In this document: one piece after another, positions 43,888 to 49,789 of the stretch
Layout: the number at the start of each line of letters is the position of its first letter
How positions within the stretch are numbered: position 1 is the stretch's first letter
Source: Streptomyces sp. NBC_01723
GTDB lineage: Bacteria > Actinomycetota > Actinomycetes > Streptomycetales > Streptomycetaceae
Length of the DNA: 64,000 nt
Assembly (NCBI RefSeq): GCF_036246005.1
Contig: NZ_CP109171.1
Location: 5,630,001 to 5,694,000 of the forward strand
Direction of reading: 5' to 3'
Translations under genes and position numbers: made by a program
Notes under the pieces: model-generated
The model's input: only the letters and a program-made list of their open reading frames with translations
Database searches by the model: none
What the model was told of the DNA's origin: nothing

Positions 43888-43917
43888 GGCTGCGCCCCCG
43901 GACCCCCGCTTCGGCCT
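43888..43917. repeat. Dispersed Streptomyces-type repeat after ilvE
   Basis: GC-rich DNA of the type GGCTGCGCCCCCGGACCC, then CCGCTTCGGCCT, which from memory occurs often between Streptomyces genes. It touches the stop codon of the opposite permease gene. Confidence 0.45.
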
Positions 43918-45361
43918 AAACGGCCTCGTCCTCGAACACCGGCTGGGCCGGGTGGGCCACCGCGGGCTCCGCCGGGAACGAGCCCGGGCTCTGCGCCAGC
44001 AGTACGTACACCACCCCGCCCACCAGCCCCGACAGCAGGAAGCTGCAGTCCACCCCGCCGGTCAGGGAGAGCAGGGGGCCCTCGTAGGACGGCAGGGACA
44101 CGGCCAGGACGCCCACCGTCGCGCCCACCGCCCAGGCGGCCGTCGCGGGGACGTTCCAGCCGGCGCGGTACCAGTAGATCCCGCCCCGCGCGCGGCGGTT
44201 GAAGACCTGGAGCGCGTCGGCGTCGTACACCCCGCCGCAGCGGACCGAGCCGATCATCGTGATGACCGCCCACGGCGTGCCGATCGCCGTGAGCAGCAGC
44301 ACGAACGACGTCATCGCCGACTGCGCGTCCCAGGCGTAGTGCCCGGCGAACACGCAGGCCGTGGCGACGACGGCGACGGCACAGGTGGCGCGGGCGCGGG
44401 AGGCGCGCGGCAGGATGGCGTCCAGGTCGAGGCCCATCGAGTAGAGCATCAGCCCGGCGTTGCCCACCGAGCCGGCCGAGGCGGCCAGCAGCAGCGGGAC
44501 CAGGTACCAGGCGGGGGCGGCGTCGACCAGCGGGCCCGCGTAGTCGAGGGCGGCACGGGCGGCGTACGCCGTGAAGGTGCCGAAGAGCTGCGGCACGAGC
44601 AGCCCCAGCATCAGCCCCAGCCAGGTCGCGTGCAGCACCCGGCGCGAGGAGAAGCGGGCCGGTGAGATGTAGCGGGTGTAGTCGCCGAGCAGCGTGATGA
44701 AGGCGATCGGCCCGGACAGTCCCGCGGCCACGGCGGCAAGCAGCCACGTCGGCCAGAAGCCGCCCAGCAGGTACCCTCCGGCCTCCGGGAGCGCGGCGGT
44801 GGTGAAGTCGGGGGCGTAGGCGATCACGCCCAGGACCAGCAGGGCCGTCATGGCGTAGGCCAGCACCTTGGACATGGCGAGCAGCACCCGGTAGCCGTAG
44901 ACCGCGCCCGCGACGGTCGCCGCGGCGAGCAGGCCGTAGACGACGGCGTACGCGGCCCCGCCCTGCGGGAGTCCGAAGAGGCGGCCGAGCACGCCCATCA
45001 TCACGTCCCCGCCGATCCACACGGTCAGCGCCGTGTAGCCGAGGGCCAGCAGCAGCCCGACCACCGAACCCACCAGCCGCCCGCGCACACCGAACTGGGC
45101 GCCGGACGACGTGGACAGGTTGGTGCCGGTGCGCAGCGAGACCAGCGCGAGCGGTGCCGTGAACAGCGTGCCGACGACCGTGCCCGCCACCACCGCGCCG
45201 ACCGACGCCCACCAGCCCAGGCCGAAGGACGGCGGCAGCCAGCCGAAGACGATCACGCCGAGGCAGAGGTTGGAGCCCAGCAGGATCGAGACGAGATCCC
45301 TGGGTCCGCTGGTGCGTTCCTCCTCGGGGATGGTGTCGACTCCGCACTGTTCGATCGGCAT
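43916..45361 (-). CDS. NCS1-family permease (cytosine/purine/allantoin type)
   Basis: A 481-aa membrane protein with about 12 helices and the NCS1 pattern: PEEERTSGPRDLVSILLGSNLCLGVIVFGWLPP at the start, GAQFGVRGRLVGS in helix 3 and GDYTRYISP near helix 6. NCS1 proteins import nucleobases, hydantoins, allantoin or related nitrogen compounds by H+ or Na+ symport. It is divergent from the urease-like genes and shares their control region, so it may import the substrate of that pathway (inference). ATG 45361 has AAGGAGA upstream. Confidence 0.88.
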   Translation of the reverse strand: MPIEQCGVDTIPEEERTSGPRDLVSILLGSNLCLGVIVFGWLPPSFGLGWWASVGAVVAGTVVGTLFTAPLALVSLRTGTNLSTSSGAQFGVRGRLVGSVVGLLLALGYTALTVWIGGDVMMGVLGRLFGLPQGGAAYAVVYGLLAAATVAGAVYGYRVLLAMSKVLAYAMTALLVLGVIAYAPDFTTAALPEAGGYLLGGFWPTWLLAAVAAGLSGPIAFITLLGDYTRYISPARFSSRRVLHATWLGLMLGLLVPQLFGTFTAYAARAALDYAGPLVDAAPAWYLVPLLLAASAGSVGNAGLMLYSMGLDLDAILPRASRARATCAVAVVATACVFAGHYAWDAQSAMTSFVLLLTAIGTPWAVITMIGSVRCGGVYDADALQVFNRRARGGIYWYRAGWNVPATAAWAVGATVGVLAVSLPSYEGPLLSLTGGVDCSFLLSGLVGGVVYVLLAQSPGSFPAEPAVAHPAQPVFEDEAV

Positions 45362-45391
45362 GGCTGGTCTCCTTCGACGGCCGCCTGTTGG

Positions 45392-45408
45392 TTTAGAGCG
45401 ACGTTCAA
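45392..45408. promoter_or_regulatory. Operator-like site 1, permease/urease control region
   Basis: TTTAGAGCGACGTTCAA is an imperfect dyad sharing TTTAGAG and GTTC with site 2. It lies 31 bp before the permease start. Confidence 0.55.
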
Positions 45409-45460
45409 TGTGACGTCTGCTTGTGCCGCCCGTCAATGGTTCCGTTCCAGGGATGCCCTG

Positions 45461-45478
45461 TTTAGAGTGGTGTTCTAA
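45461..45478. promoter_or_regulatory. Operator-like site 2, permease/urease control region
   Basis: TTTAGAGTGGTGTTCTAA has arms TTAGA and TCTAA with a 7-nt centre. It lies 28 bp before the ureAB start and 69 bp from site 1. The TetR gene at the end of the operon is the obvious candidate to bind both. Confidence 0.6.
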
Positions 45479-45506
45479 GGTCGGGATAGCAAGGAGGTGC
45501 CGCGTC

Positions 45507-46223
45507 GTGAGACTGACCCCCACGGAACGTGACCGGCTGCTGCTCTTCGGGGCGGCCGAGCTGGCCCGGGCCCGTCGGAACCGCGGGCTCCGGCTGAACG
45601 TGCCGGAGGCGACCGCGCTGATCGCGGACACCGTGTGCGAGGCCGCTCGCGACGGTGCCCGTCTCGCCGAGGCCGTCGAGCGGGCCCGGTCCGTGCTCGG
45701 CCCGGACGACGTGCTGCCAGGCGTCGCGGACGTGGTCACCGAGGTCCATGTGGAGGCCGTCTTCGACGACGGCTCCCGGCTCGCGGTCGTCTCCGCCCCG
45801 ATCGGGGGCGGGGGACTGGGCCCGGCGGGCCCGGGGGCCCTGCTGCCGGGTCCCGACCACGCCGAACCCGAGGCGGCGCTCCGGCTGCCGGTCACCAACA
45901 GCGCGACCGTGCCGGTCTCCGTGACCTCCCACTTCCACTTCTTCGAGGCCAACCCGCGCCTGGACTTCGACCGCGAGCGGGCCTACGGCATGCGTCTCGC
46001 CGTCCCCGCCGGGTCCTCGGTCCGCTTCGGGCCCGGCGAGAGCGCCGAGGTCGGCCTGGTGCCCATCGGCGGGCGGCGGGTCGCGATCGGGTTCGCCGGA
46101 CTGGTCGACGGGCCGCTGGACGCGCCGGGCGCCAAGGAGGAGGCCCTGCGGCGGGCGGCGGCCTGCGGATACCTGGGCGTGCCCCCCGTAGCAGACGGAT
46201 CACCGGAAGGAGGCGTGCGATGA
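45507..46223 (+). CDS. ureAB: Fused urease gamma-beta subunit
   Basis: A 238-aa protein joining UreA (gamma, residues ~1-100: LTPTERDRLLLFGAAELARARRNRGLRLN) to UreB (beta, ~130-230: VTNSATVPVSVTSHFHFFEANPRLDFDR...RMRLAVPAG-like). The linker is Gly/Pro-rich. A similar fusion is known in Helicobacter UreA. GTG 45507 has a full AAGGAGG site at 45491-45497. The stop overlaps the ureC ATG by 4 nt. No ureD, E, F or G gene is near, so nickel loading, if needed, must use maturation proteins encoded elsewhere. Confidence 0.92.
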   Translation: MRLTPTERDRLLLFGAAELARARRNRGLRLNVPEATALIADTVCEAARDGARLAEAVERARSVLGPDDVLPGVADVVTEVHVEAVFDDGSRLAVVSAPIGGGGLGPAGPGALLPGPDHAEPEAALRLPVTNSATVPVSVTSHFHFFEANPRLDFDRERAYGMRLAVPAGSSVRFGPGESAEVGLVPIGGRRVAIGFAGLVDGPLDAPGAKEEALRRAAACGYLGVPPVADGSPEGGVR

Positions 46224-47935
46224 GCCGCTCCAAGGGACGCGAGATCAGCGAGTCGATCCACATCGACCCGTACGCCTACGCCGCCACCCACGGCCCCCGT
46301 GCGGGCGACCGGCTGCGCCTCGGCGACTCGGGGCTGGTGATCCGCGTCGAGTCCGACGCCCAGCTCCAGGGCGACGAGTTCCTGGCCGGGTTCGGCAAGA
46401 CCGCCCGCGACGGGCTGCACCTCAAGGCCGCCGCGGTGCGCGAGACCTGCGACGTCGTCATCAGCAACGTCGTGGTCATCGACGCGGTCCAGGGCATCCG
46501 CAAGGTGTCGATCGGCATCCGCGAGGGCCGCATCCACGCCATCGGCCGGGCCGGCAACCCCGACACCCTCGACGGCGTCGACGTGGTCGTCGGCACCGGC
46601 ACGTCCATCGTCTCCGGCGAGGGCCTGATCGCCACCGCCGGAGCCGTCGACACCCACGTCCACCTGCTCTCCCCGCGCATCATGGAGGCGTCGCTCGCCT
46701 CCGGCGTGACGACGGTCATCGGCCAGGAGTTCGGGCCGGTCTGGGGCGTCGGCGTCAACTCGCCCTGGGCGCTGAAGCACGCCTTCGGCGCCTTCGACGC
46801 CTGGCCGGTCAACATCGGGTTCCTGGGCCGGGGGTCCTCGTCCCACGAGGCACCGCTGATCGAGGCGCTGGCCGAGGGCGGCGCGTCCGGCTTCAAGGTG
46901 CACGAGGACATGGGCGCCCACAGCCGCGCCCTCGACACCGCCCTGCGCGTCGCCGAGGAGCACGACGTCCAGGTCGCCCTGCACAGCGACGGCCTCAACG
47001 AGTGCCTGTCGGTCGAGGACACCCTCCGTGTCCTGGAGGGCCGCACCATCCACGCCTTCCACATCGAGGGCTGCGGCGGCGGACACGTCCCCAACGTGCT
47101 GAAGATGGCCGGCGTCCCCAACGTCATCGGCTCCTCCACCAACCCCACCCTGCCCTTTGGCCGGGACGCGGTGGCCGAGCACTACGGCATGATCGTCTCC
47201 GTCCACGACCTCAAGACCGAACTGCCGGGCGACGCCGCCATGGCCCGCGACCGCATCCGCGAAGGGACCATGGGCGCCGAGGACGTGCTGCACGACCTGG
47301 GAGCCATCGGCATCACCTCCTCCGACGCCCAGGGCATGGGCCGGGCCGGCGAGACGGTCCGCCGCACCTTCGCGATGGCCGGCAAGATGAAGGCCGAGTT
47401 CGGCGCCCCCGACGACGACAACGACAACGAGCGCGTCCTGCGCTACATGGCGAAGCTGACCGTCAACCCCGCCATCGCCCACGGCCTCGCGCACGAGGTC
47501 GGCTCCATCGAGGCCGGCAAGCTCGCCGACATCGTGCTGTGGCGCCCGGAGTACTTCGGCGCCAAGCCGCAGCTCGTCCTCAAGGCGGGCTTCCCGGCGT
47601 ACGGCGTGGTCGGCGACCCGAACGCGGCGACCGACACCTGCGAACCCCTCGTCCTCGGCCCGCAGTTCGGCGCGCACGGCGCCACCCCCGCCGAGATCTC
47701 GGTCGCCTTCGTCGCGCAGGCCGCCGTGGATCAGGGGCACGACACGATGCCCACCCGCCGCCGCCGGGTCGCCGTGCGCGGCACCCGCGGCATCGGACCG
47801 GCCGACCTGCGCCTGAACTCCCGCACCGGACAGGTCGACGTCGACCGGCGCACCGGCCTGGTCACCCTGGACGGCGACCCGCTGCGCTCCGAACCCGCCG
47901 AGTCCGTATCCCTCAACCGCCTCTACTTCCTGTGA
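46220..47935 (+). CDS. ureC: Divergent urease alpha subunit
   Basis: A 571-aa UreC homologue. The nickel ligands are kept: DTHVH, carbamylated K226 in GFKVHED, LHSDGLNE, FHIEGCGGGH and the Asp in SSDAQGMGR. The active-site neighbourhood differs from usual ureases: HEDWG is HEDMG, TDTLNES is SDGLNEC, and the flap VCHHL reads SVHDL, giving V328 in place of the flap Cys and D330 in place of the second His. The flap His is kept (H329). Urea hydrolysis is possible but not assured; a related ureido or guanidino substrate is an alternative. It overlaps ureAB by 4 nt. Confidence 0.9.
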   Translation: MSRSKGREISESIHIDPYAYAATHGPRAGDRLRLGDSGLVIRVESDAQLQGDEFLAGFGKTARDGLHLKAAAVRETCDVVISNVVVIDAVQGIRKVSIGIREGRIHAIGRAGNPDTLDGVDVVVGTGTSIVSGEGLIATAGAVDTHVHLLSPRIMEASLASGVTTVIGQEFGPVWGVGVNSPWALKHAFGAFDAWPVNIGFLGRGSSSHEAPLIEALAEGGASGFKVHEDMGAHSRALDTALRVAEEHDVQVALHSDGLNECLSVEDTLRVLEGRTIHAFHIEGCGGGHVPNVLKMAGVPNVIGSSTNPTLPFGRDAVAEHYGMIVSVHDLKTELPGDAAMARDRIREGTMGAEDVLHDLGAIGITSSDAQGMGRAGETVRRTFAMAGKMKAEFGAPDDDNDNERVLRYMAKLTVNPAIAHGLAHEVGSIEAGKLADIVLWRPEYFGAKPQLVLKAGFPAYGVVGDPNAATDTCEPLVLGPQFGAHGATPAEISVAFVAQAAVDQGHDTMPTRRRRVAVRGTRGIGPADLRLNSRTGQVDVDRRTGLVTLDGDPLRSEPAESVSLNRLYFL

Positions 47936-47946
47936 AGGTGCCCGCC

Positions 47947-48981
47947 ATGACCCCTGCCGCCGACGGCTTCCGCATGCCCGCCGAGTGGGCCCCGCACGAA
48001 CGCACCTGGATGGCGTGGCCGGGCCCCAACCCCACCTTCGAGGACCCCGGGGACCTGGCCGCCGCGCACATCGCCTGGGCCGGTGTCGCCCGCGCCGTGC
48101 GCCGCTTCGAACCGGTGACCGTGGTGTGCGGTCCGGGCCGGTCCGCCGAGGCGCGGGCGCTGCTCGGCGACGGCATCGACACCGTTGAACGGGAGCTGGA
48201 CGACGCGTGGATGCGGGACATCGGCCCCACCTTCCTCACCGGACCGGACGGGCTGGCCGCGGTCGACTGGACCTTCAACGGCTGGGGCGCGCAGGAGTGG
48301 GCCCGCTGGGAGCACGACGCGAAGATCGGCGCGCACGTCGCCGACCTCGCGGGCGCCCGGACCTATGCCTCGCCGCTCGTCAACGAGGGCGGCGGCATCC
48401 ACGTCGACGGCGAGGGCACCGTGCTGCTCACCGAGACCGTGCAGCTCGGGCCCGAACGCAACCCCGGCTGGACGAAGGAGCGGGTCGAGGCGGAGGTGCA
48501 CGCCCACCTCGGCACCAGCAGGGCGATCTGGCTGCCCCGCGGCCTCACCGGCGACTACCCGCCCAACGGGTTCGGCACCCTCGGCCACGTCGACATCGTC
48601 GCCGCCTTCGCCGCGCCGGGCGTCGTCGTCGCCCACCACCAGCCGGACCCGGCCCACCCCGACCACGAGGTGACCAAGGAGGCCATCGGCGTCCTGCGCG
48701 CCGCCACCGACGCCCGGGGCCGCCGACTGGAGGTCGTCGAGGTGCCCGCCCCGACCGTCCTGGAGGCCGACGGCCACTGGGCCGACTACTCCTACATCAA
48801 CCACTACCTGTGCAACGGCGGCGTCGTCCTGTGCGCCTTCGACGACCCGCGCGACGAGATCGCGGCCGGCATCTTCCGCCGCCTGCACCCTCGGCGGACG
48901 GTGACCCTGGTGGACGCGCGTACGATCTTCGCGGGTGGCGGGGGCATCCACTGCATCACGCAGCAGCAGCCGAAAGTCTAG
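47947..48981 (+). CDS. Agmatine deiminase-family protein
   Basis: A 344-aa guanidino-group hydrolase. Family blocks are MPAEWAPHERTWMAWP, DDAWMRDIGPTF, NEGGGIHVDGEGTVL, GHVDIVAAF and the catalytic GGGGIHCITQQQP with nucleophile C336. Known members turn agmatine into N-carbamoylputrescine and ammonia. It starts 11 nt after ureC, with GAAGGTG as ribosome site, so it is part of the urease operon. That pairing suggests successive attack on a guanidino and then a ureido group (inference). No N-carbamoylputrescine amidase gene is near. Confidence 0.88.
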   Translation: MTPAADGFRMPAEWAPHERTWMAWPGPNPTFEDPGDLAAAHIAWAGVARAVRRFEPVTVVCGPGRSAEARALLGDGIDTVERELDDAWMRDIGPTFLTGPDGLAAVDWTFNGWGAQEWARWEHDAKIGAHVADLAGARTYASPLVNEGGGIHVDGEGTVLLTETVQLGPERNPGWTKERVEAEVHAHLGTSRAIWLPRGLTGDYPPNGFGTLGHVDIVAAFAAPGVVVAHHQPDPAHPDHEVTKEAIGVLRAATDARGRRLEVVEVPAPTVLEADGHWADYSYINHYLCNGGVVLCAFDDPRDEIAAGIFRRLHPRRTVTLVDARTIFAGGGGIHCITQQQPKV

Positions 48982-48990
48982 GAGCGGGAC

Positions 48991-49593
48991 ATGGCCGGTG
49001 GTGGGCGCAGACAGGCGCCGCCGCGTGAGGACGTGCTCGCCGCCGCCATGGAGATGATCGCCGAGCGCGGCCTGGAGAAGCTGACCATGGCGGCGCTCGG
49101 CCGCGAGGTCGGCATGAGCAGCGGCCACCTCCTGTACTACTTCCACTCCAAGGACGAGCTGCTGCTGCGCACCCTGGAGTGGAGCGAGGGCCGCCTGGGC
49201 GTGGAACGCGGCCGGCTGCTCACCCGGCCCGGCACCGCCCGTGAACGGCTCCAGGAGTACGTCGACCTCTACGTCCCCGACGGCCACCGCGACCCGCACT
49301 GGACGCTGTGGCTGGAGGTGTGGAACCGCTCGCAGAACGCCGAGGACGACGCCCGCGACCGGCAGGCCGCCATCGAGGGCGCCTGGCACCGCGACCTGGT
49401 CGCCCTGCTCGCCGAGGGCGTCTCGCGCGGCGAGTTCCGCCGCGTCGACCCCGACCGGTTCGCGTCCCGGCTGCGGGCGCTCCTCGACGGCCTCGCCATC
49501 CACGTGGCGATCGGCCTGCGGGGGACGGACCGGGCGCAGGTGCTCGACCACGTCCGGGAGTTCCTGACGGACGGCCTCTACACGGACGTCTGA
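48991..49593 (+). CDS. TetR-family regulator of the urease locus
   Basis: A 200-aa protein with an N-terminal helix-turn-helix (REDVLAAAMEMIAERGLEKLTMAALGREVGMSSGHLLYYFHSKDELL, residues ~10-55) and a helical C-terminal ligand domain of the BetI/AcrR-like type. It begins 9 nt after the deiminase gene and is the last gene of the operon. It probably binds the two TTTAGAG sites in the divergent control region at 45392-45478 (inference). No operator is seen directly before it. Confidence 0.87.
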   Translation: MAGGGRRQAPPREDVLAAAMEMIAERGLEKLTMAALGREVGMSSGHLLYYFHSKDELLLRTLEWSEGRLGVERGRLLTRPGTARERLQEYVDLYVPDGHRDPHWTLWLEVWNRSQNAEDDARDRQAAIEGAWHRDLVALLAEGVSRGEFRRVDPDRFASRLRALLDGLAIHVAIGLRGTDRAQVLDHVREFLTDGLYTDV

Positions 49594-49709: not shown

Positions 49710-49764
49710 CCGCCACGTACGACCAGGTACGGGCGGACACCGTCGTCCTCGACCCGCGCGCAGA

Positions 49765-49789
49765 CCTCTCGCACCCGCGAGGGGTTTTT
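49765..49789 (+). terminator. cimA attenuator (intrinsic terminator)
   Basis: CCTCTCGC (49765-49772) and GCGAGGGG (49777-49784) form an 8-bp stem with one G-U pair and an ACCC loop. TTTTT follows at 49785-49789. It lies 55 nt after the leader stop and 108 nt before cimA. These elements account for most of the 304-nt gap upstream of cimA. Confidence 0.82.

Follow-up and report, generated by a model that had tools for sequence, protein, structure and literature searches.

A urease-like locus of Streptomyces and other actinobacteria as a candidate ureido hydrolase module paired with a deiminase

Urease, the textbook nickel enzyme, depends strictly on chaperones and is strictly specific for its substrate, and a locus of Streptomyces sp. 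NBC_01723 in which urease-like genes stand beside a deiminase gene, with no maturation genes alongside, raises the question of what such an enzyme acts on and how it obtains its metal. The locus lies in a stretch of 64,000 nucleotides (the window; RefSeq assembly GCF_036246005.1, contig NZ_CP109171.1, positions 5,630,001 to 5,694,000, forward strand), and positions below are those of the window. An earlier note, made from the sequence alone, had described five genes here, and all five were confirmed by open reading frames and domain matches. Our analysis suggests that the urease-like enzyme is probably a urease-fold ureido hydrolase which cleaves off the carbamoyl group that remains after the deiminase has acted, the two forming a two-step module for a guanidino compound without dedicated nickel chaperones. 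The five genes are as follows.

43919..45361, minus strand: NCS1-family permease (PF02133, 360 bits; stop codon from 43916), a probable importer and an optional part of the locus
45507..46223, plus strand: fused gamma-beta subunit (ureAB-like; PF00547, 119 bits; PF00699, 104 bits), with a GTG start after GGAGG
46220..47935, plus strand: divergent alpha subunit (ureC-like), a predicted metal-dependent ureido hydrolase
47947..48981, plus strand: protein of the agmatine-deiminase family (PAD_porph; PF04371, 358 bits), called ADI below, a predicted guanidine deiminase
48991..49593, plus strand: TetR regulator with a BetI-type C-terminal domain (PF00440, PF13977), the predicted regulator of the locus

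The gamma, beta and alpha parts of a urease are all present, and the fused gamma-beta protein scored above the PRK13192 cut-off (316 bits in comparison to 243). The ureAB and alpha genes overlap by 4 bases, the gap between alpha and ADI is 11 bases and that between ADI and TetR is 9 bases, all four genes being on the plus strand, while the permease gene is divergent from ureAB at an intergenic distance of 145 bases and would therefore lie outside the ureAB-alpha-ADI-TetR transcript. Among the open reading frames of the locus there is no space for UreD, UreE, UreF or UreG. The window genome holds three occurrences of the alpha N-terminal domain, a single gene of the ADI family and two UreD genes, each about 2 kb from one other urease (at 1.14 and 6.24 Mb); by tblastn, the window alpha was 45% and 42% identical to these two other ureases, and databases label its close relatives urease subunit alpha. 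The arrangement of the locus is far beyond chance, because it recurs in dozens of genomes.

To see how widely the divergent alpha occurs, matches to it were collected at several levels. The results showed 68 copies in 61 of 101 Streptomyces genomes with at least 78% identity to the window alpha, in comparison to 46% to 49% for the 82 ordinary UreC copies among the matches listed, and in two further Streptomyces genomes (G039 and G042) the alpha gene was interrupted by contig ends. The 246 class-level genomes included ten outside Streptomyces, from four families, that carried the divergent alpha at 52% to 84%. A scan of titled genome records, from which the best 80 of at least 585 stretches encoding a relative were taken (a wider spread is thus possible), gave loci from Streptomyces, Kitasatospora, Embleya, Planomonospora, Nonomuraea, Kribbella, Kineosporia, a Nocardiopsis metagenome-assembled genome (MAG), and Nanopelagicales and other actinobacterial MAGs, where the taxa are the record titles as written and a few are plainly misnamed. 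In 19 of the 80 scanned loci, all titled Streptomyces, leuB, ilvE or leuA adjoins the block as in the window (leu-context loci). For members outside the class, the protein of locus L057 was compared with 396 genomes of the phylum at E <= 1e-150 and matched in nine, which belong to a single genus. In a tree of 95 rows, 90 divergent alphas (the 80 scan loci, the window and nine others) formed one group on a long branch of 0.68 with a Shimodaira-Hasegawa-like approximate likelihood ratio (SH-aLRT) support of 100, apart from five other UreC rows; the tree was built by a quick method with a small outgroup and carries a long-branch warning for one of its rows, L060. Judged by sequence, the divergent alphas are a separate urease-like subfamily. 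As a side observation, several actinobacterial MAG contigs were titled Bifidobacterium breve, apparently through a labelling error.

What this subfamily acts on is suggested by its active site, for which residue numbers are those of Sporosarcina pasteurii urease, transferred by counting from His139, and papers here and below are cited for what their accessible passages state. His137, His139, Lys220, His222, Asp224, His249, His275, Gly280, His323, Arg339 and Asp363 were kept in 90 of 90 divergent alphas, Lys220 being the putative carbamylated ligand. In urease, the urea NH2 is bound by two carbonyls, those of Ala170 and Ala366 (PMC7433671). The segment around Ala170 had 18 residues in all 90 divergent alphas in comparison to 22 in three of the five comparison UreC rows, with two glycines changed to Gln-Glu (positions 160 and 161 by alignment) and a tryptophan (position 166) added in every one, and Ala366 was replaced by glycine throughout, so that none of the 90 carries the urea-binding pocket signature of urease as that source describes it. 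Cys322 was replaced in 73 of the 90. An AlphaFold model, of moderate confidence with a mean predicted local distance difference test (pLDDT) score of 76.8, showed the urease fold along nearly the whole length; four other models had pLDDT values of 50 to 62, and the AlphaFold model was used for the overall fold only. An intact metal site with the flap histidine and arginine, combined with an altered urea-enclosing pocket, would fit a substituted urea; of the two substrates named in the earlier note, a ureido product and urea, the active site favours the ureido compound. The window alpha scored under the cut-off of the NCBIfam urease equivalog TIGR01792 (631.6 bits in comparison to 680), which, together with the lack of maturation genes nearby, is what a catalytically dead or moonlighting urease remnant would lead one to expect; such a remnant is nevertheless very improbable, given that all 11 metal, catalytic and binding positions examined show no variation across the 90 sequences and that 61 of 101 Streptomyces genomes, as well as several further groups of actinobacteria, have the enzyme.

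Two of the comparison rows are of interest in their own right. L060 (G300:C21:97940-99610) is a very divergent UreC with an end branch of 1.42 and a short pocket segment that has the tryptophan without the Gln-Glu pair; it adjoins an Amidohydro_3 gene, no UreD, UreF or UreG match was found in 15.7 kb, and it perhaps represents a second urease-like hydrolase family. L059 (G147:C1:2317441-2319126) is a UreC with a 19-residue Ala170 segment, Gly366 and an adjacent UreG-like gene, and is maybe an intermediate form.

The functional tie to the deiminase, which the earlier note had put forward, is strongly supported by gene linkage. In the 101 Streptomyces genomes, an ADI at least 43% identical to that of the window was located within 4.5 kb, start to start, of 68 of 68 divergent alphas, whereas none of the 82 ordinary UreC among the matches listed had any of 136 ADI matches inside 20 kb. 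At 54% identity or more, ADI was found in 69 genomes, namely all 61 with the alpha and eight without (Fisher p about 4e-19, ignoring kinship); among the eight, the alpha gene is cut at contig ends in G039 and G042, and ADI itself lies at a contig end in G056. For the 80 scan loci, ADI was within 3.5 kb in 33 (19 of them leu-context), an Amidohydro_3 gene was within 6 kb in 30, neither was seen in 17 and both in none. That ADI and Amidohydro_3 never occur together is as expected if both fill one role, and Amidohydro_3 is probably a non-homologous replacement of the deiminase. From the alignment, the ADIs fall into several subtypes, and they lie upstream or downstream of the alpha gene, on the same or the opposite strand; the pairing survives these varied orders and subtypes, and the partner label (ADI or Amidohydro_3) switches at least four times on the tree. 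The several subtypes, gene orders and label switches point to one core joined with several deiminases.

The conserved set of five genes proposed in the earlier note did not hold up, and a five-gene conserved unit was rejected. Only 45 of the 68 divergent alpha copies had an NCS1 permease (at least 68% identity) within 4.5 kb, the figure among leu-context loci being 11 of 19, and Amidohydro_3 stands in place of the deiminase in 30 of 80 loci. In the gene-neighbourhood survey that the note had recommended, co-occurrence with the deiminase was thus borne out in Streptomyces while the constant presence of the permease was not, and a single conserved permease was likewise not found, and other loci have Pot-type or Opp-type transporter genes. 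Distant NCS1 proteins were seen at L066, L117 and L130; the window permease scored 40.6 bits in comparison to the NCBIfam ncs1 subfamily cut-off of 353.1, and phmmer at E <= 1 found no PDB relative of it. PotD-like binding proteins occurred in 15 of 80 loci (four with ADI and 11 with Amidohydro_3). At L051, the ATPase was over the polyamine subfamily cut-off (377 bits in comparison to 356), and the nearest solved structures to the binding protein were spermidine/putrescine-binding proteins. An SBP_bac_5 binding protein lies beside second ureABC copies in two Streptomyces (L062 and L064), and MFS transporters lie near TetR in four leu-context loci (L165, L166, L169 and L175), those of L169 and L175 being MHS-like, below cut-off, and similar to metabolite/H+ symporters such as the models of ProP and of alpha-ketoglutarate permease, a hint that the substrate there may be zwitterionic or carry a carboxyl group.

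The partner switches, the varying permease and five genomes that have ADI minus ureABC would also suit an arrangement in which the compound of the urease-like enzyme is unrelated to the deiminase and the genes stand together only through shared nitrogen-scavenging regulation. We regard this as rather improbable in view of the linkage at 68 of 68 copies against 0 of 82 ordinary ureases among the matches listed, the recruitment of several ADI subtypes by the same core, and the mutual exclusion of ADI and Amidohydro_3 across the 80 loci.

In terms of regulation, the intergenic intervals of the locus contained the following features.

45392..45409, plus strand: operator-like box 1, TTTAGAGNGNNGTTCNAA with 1 mismatch, a candidate TetR site
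45461..45478, plus strand: operator-like box 2, TTTAGAGNGNNGTTCNAA with 0 mismatches, just upstream of ureAB, a candidate TetR site
49762..49787, plus strand: terminator-like hairpin in the interval between TetR and leuA, a possible operon end

At two mismatches or fewer, these were the only two TTTAGAGNGNNGTTCNAA boxes in the whole window, both being between the permease and ureAB. When up to three mismatches are allowed, a level whose chance rate was not measured, all 19 leu-context loci have such a box within 320 bases upstream of ureAB, and the five loci without ureABC, in which TetR stays with ADI, each have one upstream of ADI. The hairpin is a weak indication of the operon end, because two hairpins were observed in the region in comparison to 1.0 expected by shuffling.

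Maturation genes were then considered beyond the window. The earlier note had remarked on their absence beside the urease-like genes, and this was found throughout: by tblastn with queries from the window genome, no UreD, UreF or UreG match was obtained in any of the 80 loci, UreE not being queried, with a sensitivity limited by at least 23 loci that are short on one side and by the variability of UreD sequence. For 16 chosen enzyme-carrying genomes, profiles of UreD and UreF found no match in ten, with UreG searched within loci only and UreE not searched, while both proteins were present in the other six; because the choice of the 16 deliberately covered genomes with a single UreC match, this proportion does not measure frequency. 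UreD is present in the window genome. The ten genomes are exactly those with a single UreC match, and include G094, a two-contig Streptomyces genome that is 100% complete, and G153 (99%). The divergent protein is therefore maintained where no urease maturation system was detected, and an ordinary urease borrowing chaperones in trans was rejected as a general rule on account of these ten genomes. Chaperones acting in trans are possible in the window genome, with its two UreD genes, and in Streptomyces generally.

The substrate of the deiminase may differ among lineages. The window ADI keeps the catalytic histidine, aspartate and cysteine (GHVD and GIHC motifs). At L054 and L098, a canonical AguA gene stands 0.5 and 3.2 kb from alpha and scores 518 and 542 bits, respectively, in comparison to a cut-off of 382, while the ADIs tested in L057, L062, L066 and L099 scored under the same TIGR03380 cut-off. 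In the lineages concerned, the canonical AguA genes and the polyamine-type transporters suggest agmatine and N-carbamoylputrescine as the compounds handled. For loci with a canonical AguA or Pot-type transporters close by, N-carbamoylputrescine is the foremost candidate substrate of the urease-like enzyme; the window deiminase may use another guanidino compound. AguB, the nitrilase that follows AguA elsewhere, was above cut-off in none of the 16 genomes, and an AguB-like nitrilase was seen in one of 104 loci (L110), the query being a sub-threshold relative. At L110 this gene lies about 1.2 kb past the alpha gene, and neither ADI nor Amidohydro_3 was detected there. Two further observations concern the deiminases: guanidine deiminases are expanded in some Streptomyces, as in G098, which has nine ADI-family matches, two of them flanking the second ureABC copy (L062); and at L092:6267 a canonical-type AguA gene stands beside ureAB, its reading seeming to end early or shift frame in the MAG assembly.

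In the mechanism which we propose, the order of the steps, the ureido substrate, the import, the regulation and the metal are what we infer from the patterns above. A lineage-dependent importer (NCS1, Pot-type or Opp-type) would bring in a guanidino compound; ADI would convert R-NH-C(=NH)NH2 to the ureido compound R-NH-CO-NH2 with release of ammonia; and UreAB-C would hydrolyse this product, yielding R-NH2, CO2 and one more ammonia, so that a urease-fold enzyme would take the role which nitrilase-fold AguB has after AguA. No dedicated nickel-loading proteins would be involved, the metal possibly being other than nickel, and TetR would act on the two boxes between the permease and ureAB. The rebuilt pocket, the frequent deiminase neighbour and the genomes lacking the helper proteins together suggest that the substrate is probably a relative of urea, not urea.

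A number of observations weigh against this mechanism. As to the pocket, Cys322 is retained in 17 of 90 divergent alphas, and the comparison rows L059 and L060 also have Gly366 and shorter segments (19 and 18 residues), L060 with the tryptophan as well. As to the partner, 30 of 80 loci have an Amidohydro_3 enzyme, whose activity is unassigned, and the first step may therefore differ there; 17 of 80 have neither partner, although nine of the 17 are on truncated stretches and, among the eight with full flanks, L124 has an ADI about 6 kb off. ADI was present in six of 12 searched genomes of such loci, with only that of L124 falling inside the locus. Five Streptomyces genomes (G005, G015, G036, G048 and G066) have ADI and TetR in the same place with ureABC absent, and the deiminase can therefore be useful alone; no AguB-like replacement of ureABC was seen in the open reading frame lists of the ADI-only loci, where no nitrilase search was made. 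The window ADI was under the agmatine-deiminase TIGR03380 cut-off (300.8 bits in comparison to 381.8), and the position of Asp220, which anchors the amine of agmatine in a plant agmatine deiminase (AIH; PMC6447857), is by alignment proline or glycine in the window ADI subtype, where an insertion lies and another residue could serve; the substrate may therefore not be agmatine. Sub-cut-off nitrilases were found in 16 of 16 genomes (up to 264 bits in comparison to 410), one of which could be AguB, and the L051 binding protein was below the PotD equivalog cut-off (117 bits in comparison to 582). As to maturation, the other eight UreD-less genomes are only 93% to 97% complete, and 60 of the 61 Streptomyces genomes with the divergent enzyme have at least one further UreC match, for which reason chaperones in trans are possible there.

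Comparison with known systems helps to place the enzyme. Bacterial UreABC, as in Klebsiella aerogenes and S. pasteurii, shares the three parts, the fold, the metal ligands and the catalytic histidine and arginine, and differs in that the divergent alpha is only about 42% to 49% identical, has an Ala170 segment four residues shorter and Gly366, and has no UreD, UreF or UreG alongside. UreA2B2 of Helicobacter mustelae, which is not known to have maturation genes of its own, is similar in that it occurs as an additional urease-type enzyme beside the ordinary nickel urease of its host. It is an iron urease (3qga) and is functional on urea (PMC11541087, PMC3919588). By analogy, chaperone-free metal loading, perhaps with iron, is plausible for the divergent enzyme. 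The divergent group differs in its rebuilt pocket and in occurring also in genomes without other UreC, UreD or UreF; the tree was built without UreA2B2. A true urease that needs no UreD, UreF or UreG, like UreA2B2, and takes urea from the neighbouring deiminase (acting on guanidine) or from elsewhere in the cell is an unlikely explanation here, because all 90 divergent alphas have a shorter and altered urea-gripping segment, the 60 of 61 Streptomyces genomes with a further UreC would have no need of a second urease, and the partners include canonical agmatine deiminase and polyamine-type transporters. The ureido hydrolase that we prefer shares its proposed logic with AguA-AguB of Pseudomonas aeruginosa, in which the carbamoyl group is released as CO2 and NH3 after deimination (PMC9397018), with the difference that AguB has the nitrilase fold. 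Putrescine transcarbamylase of Enterococcus faecalis also finishes agmatine deimination, but by transferring the carbamoyl group to give carbamoyl phosphate (PMC9397018).

Genes of this kind appear in earlier literature on Streptomyces. From the gene names, the gene content and the leuA neighbourhood, SCO5526-SCO5525 (ureAB-ureC) and SCO5527 (ADI) of S. coelicolor are presumably the orthologues of the window genes. One earlier paper noted that the ure(AB)C clusters of S. coelicolor (SCO5526) and S. avermitilis have no accessory genes (PMC2492869); to judge by the fused AB, the missing accessory genes and the genus, these loci are apparently of the kind found in the window. Its accessible passages are silent on the deiminase, the pocket and other actinobacteria. 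SCO5525-5526 have been listed as urea-utilising genes and SCO5527 as a homologue of a Pseudomonas arginine decarboxylase pathway gene, with the two not linked in the accessible text (PMC3293853). SCO5526-SCO5524 have also been given as nrdABS (PMC4991794), a label we take as a slip since it conflicts with both of the other papers. No publication linking these genes was found among those listed in literature searches, which left subscription journals mostly outside.

In a more specific form, the finding would be of a urease-fold enzyme, present in several actinobacterial groups, that naturally acts on N-carbamoylputrescine or a similar ureido compound instead of urea, assembled without nickel chaperones and perhaps without nickel, with an exchangeable deiminase and importer, which would offer a third route, beside AguB and putrescine transcarbamylase, for completing guanidine deimination pathways; this form is tentative, and we consider it a serious possibility that falls somewhat short of probable. 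A subfamily with an intact metal site and a rebuilt pocket, present where the chaperones are missing, would make it possible to ask what purpose the chaperones serve and how recognition of urea arose in urease. It would also mean that many actinobacterial proteins now named urease subunit alpha, and counted among urea-utilising genes (PMC3293853), need a corrected annotation, and would indicate an as yet unassigned route by which actinobacteria obtain nitrogen from guanidino compounds.

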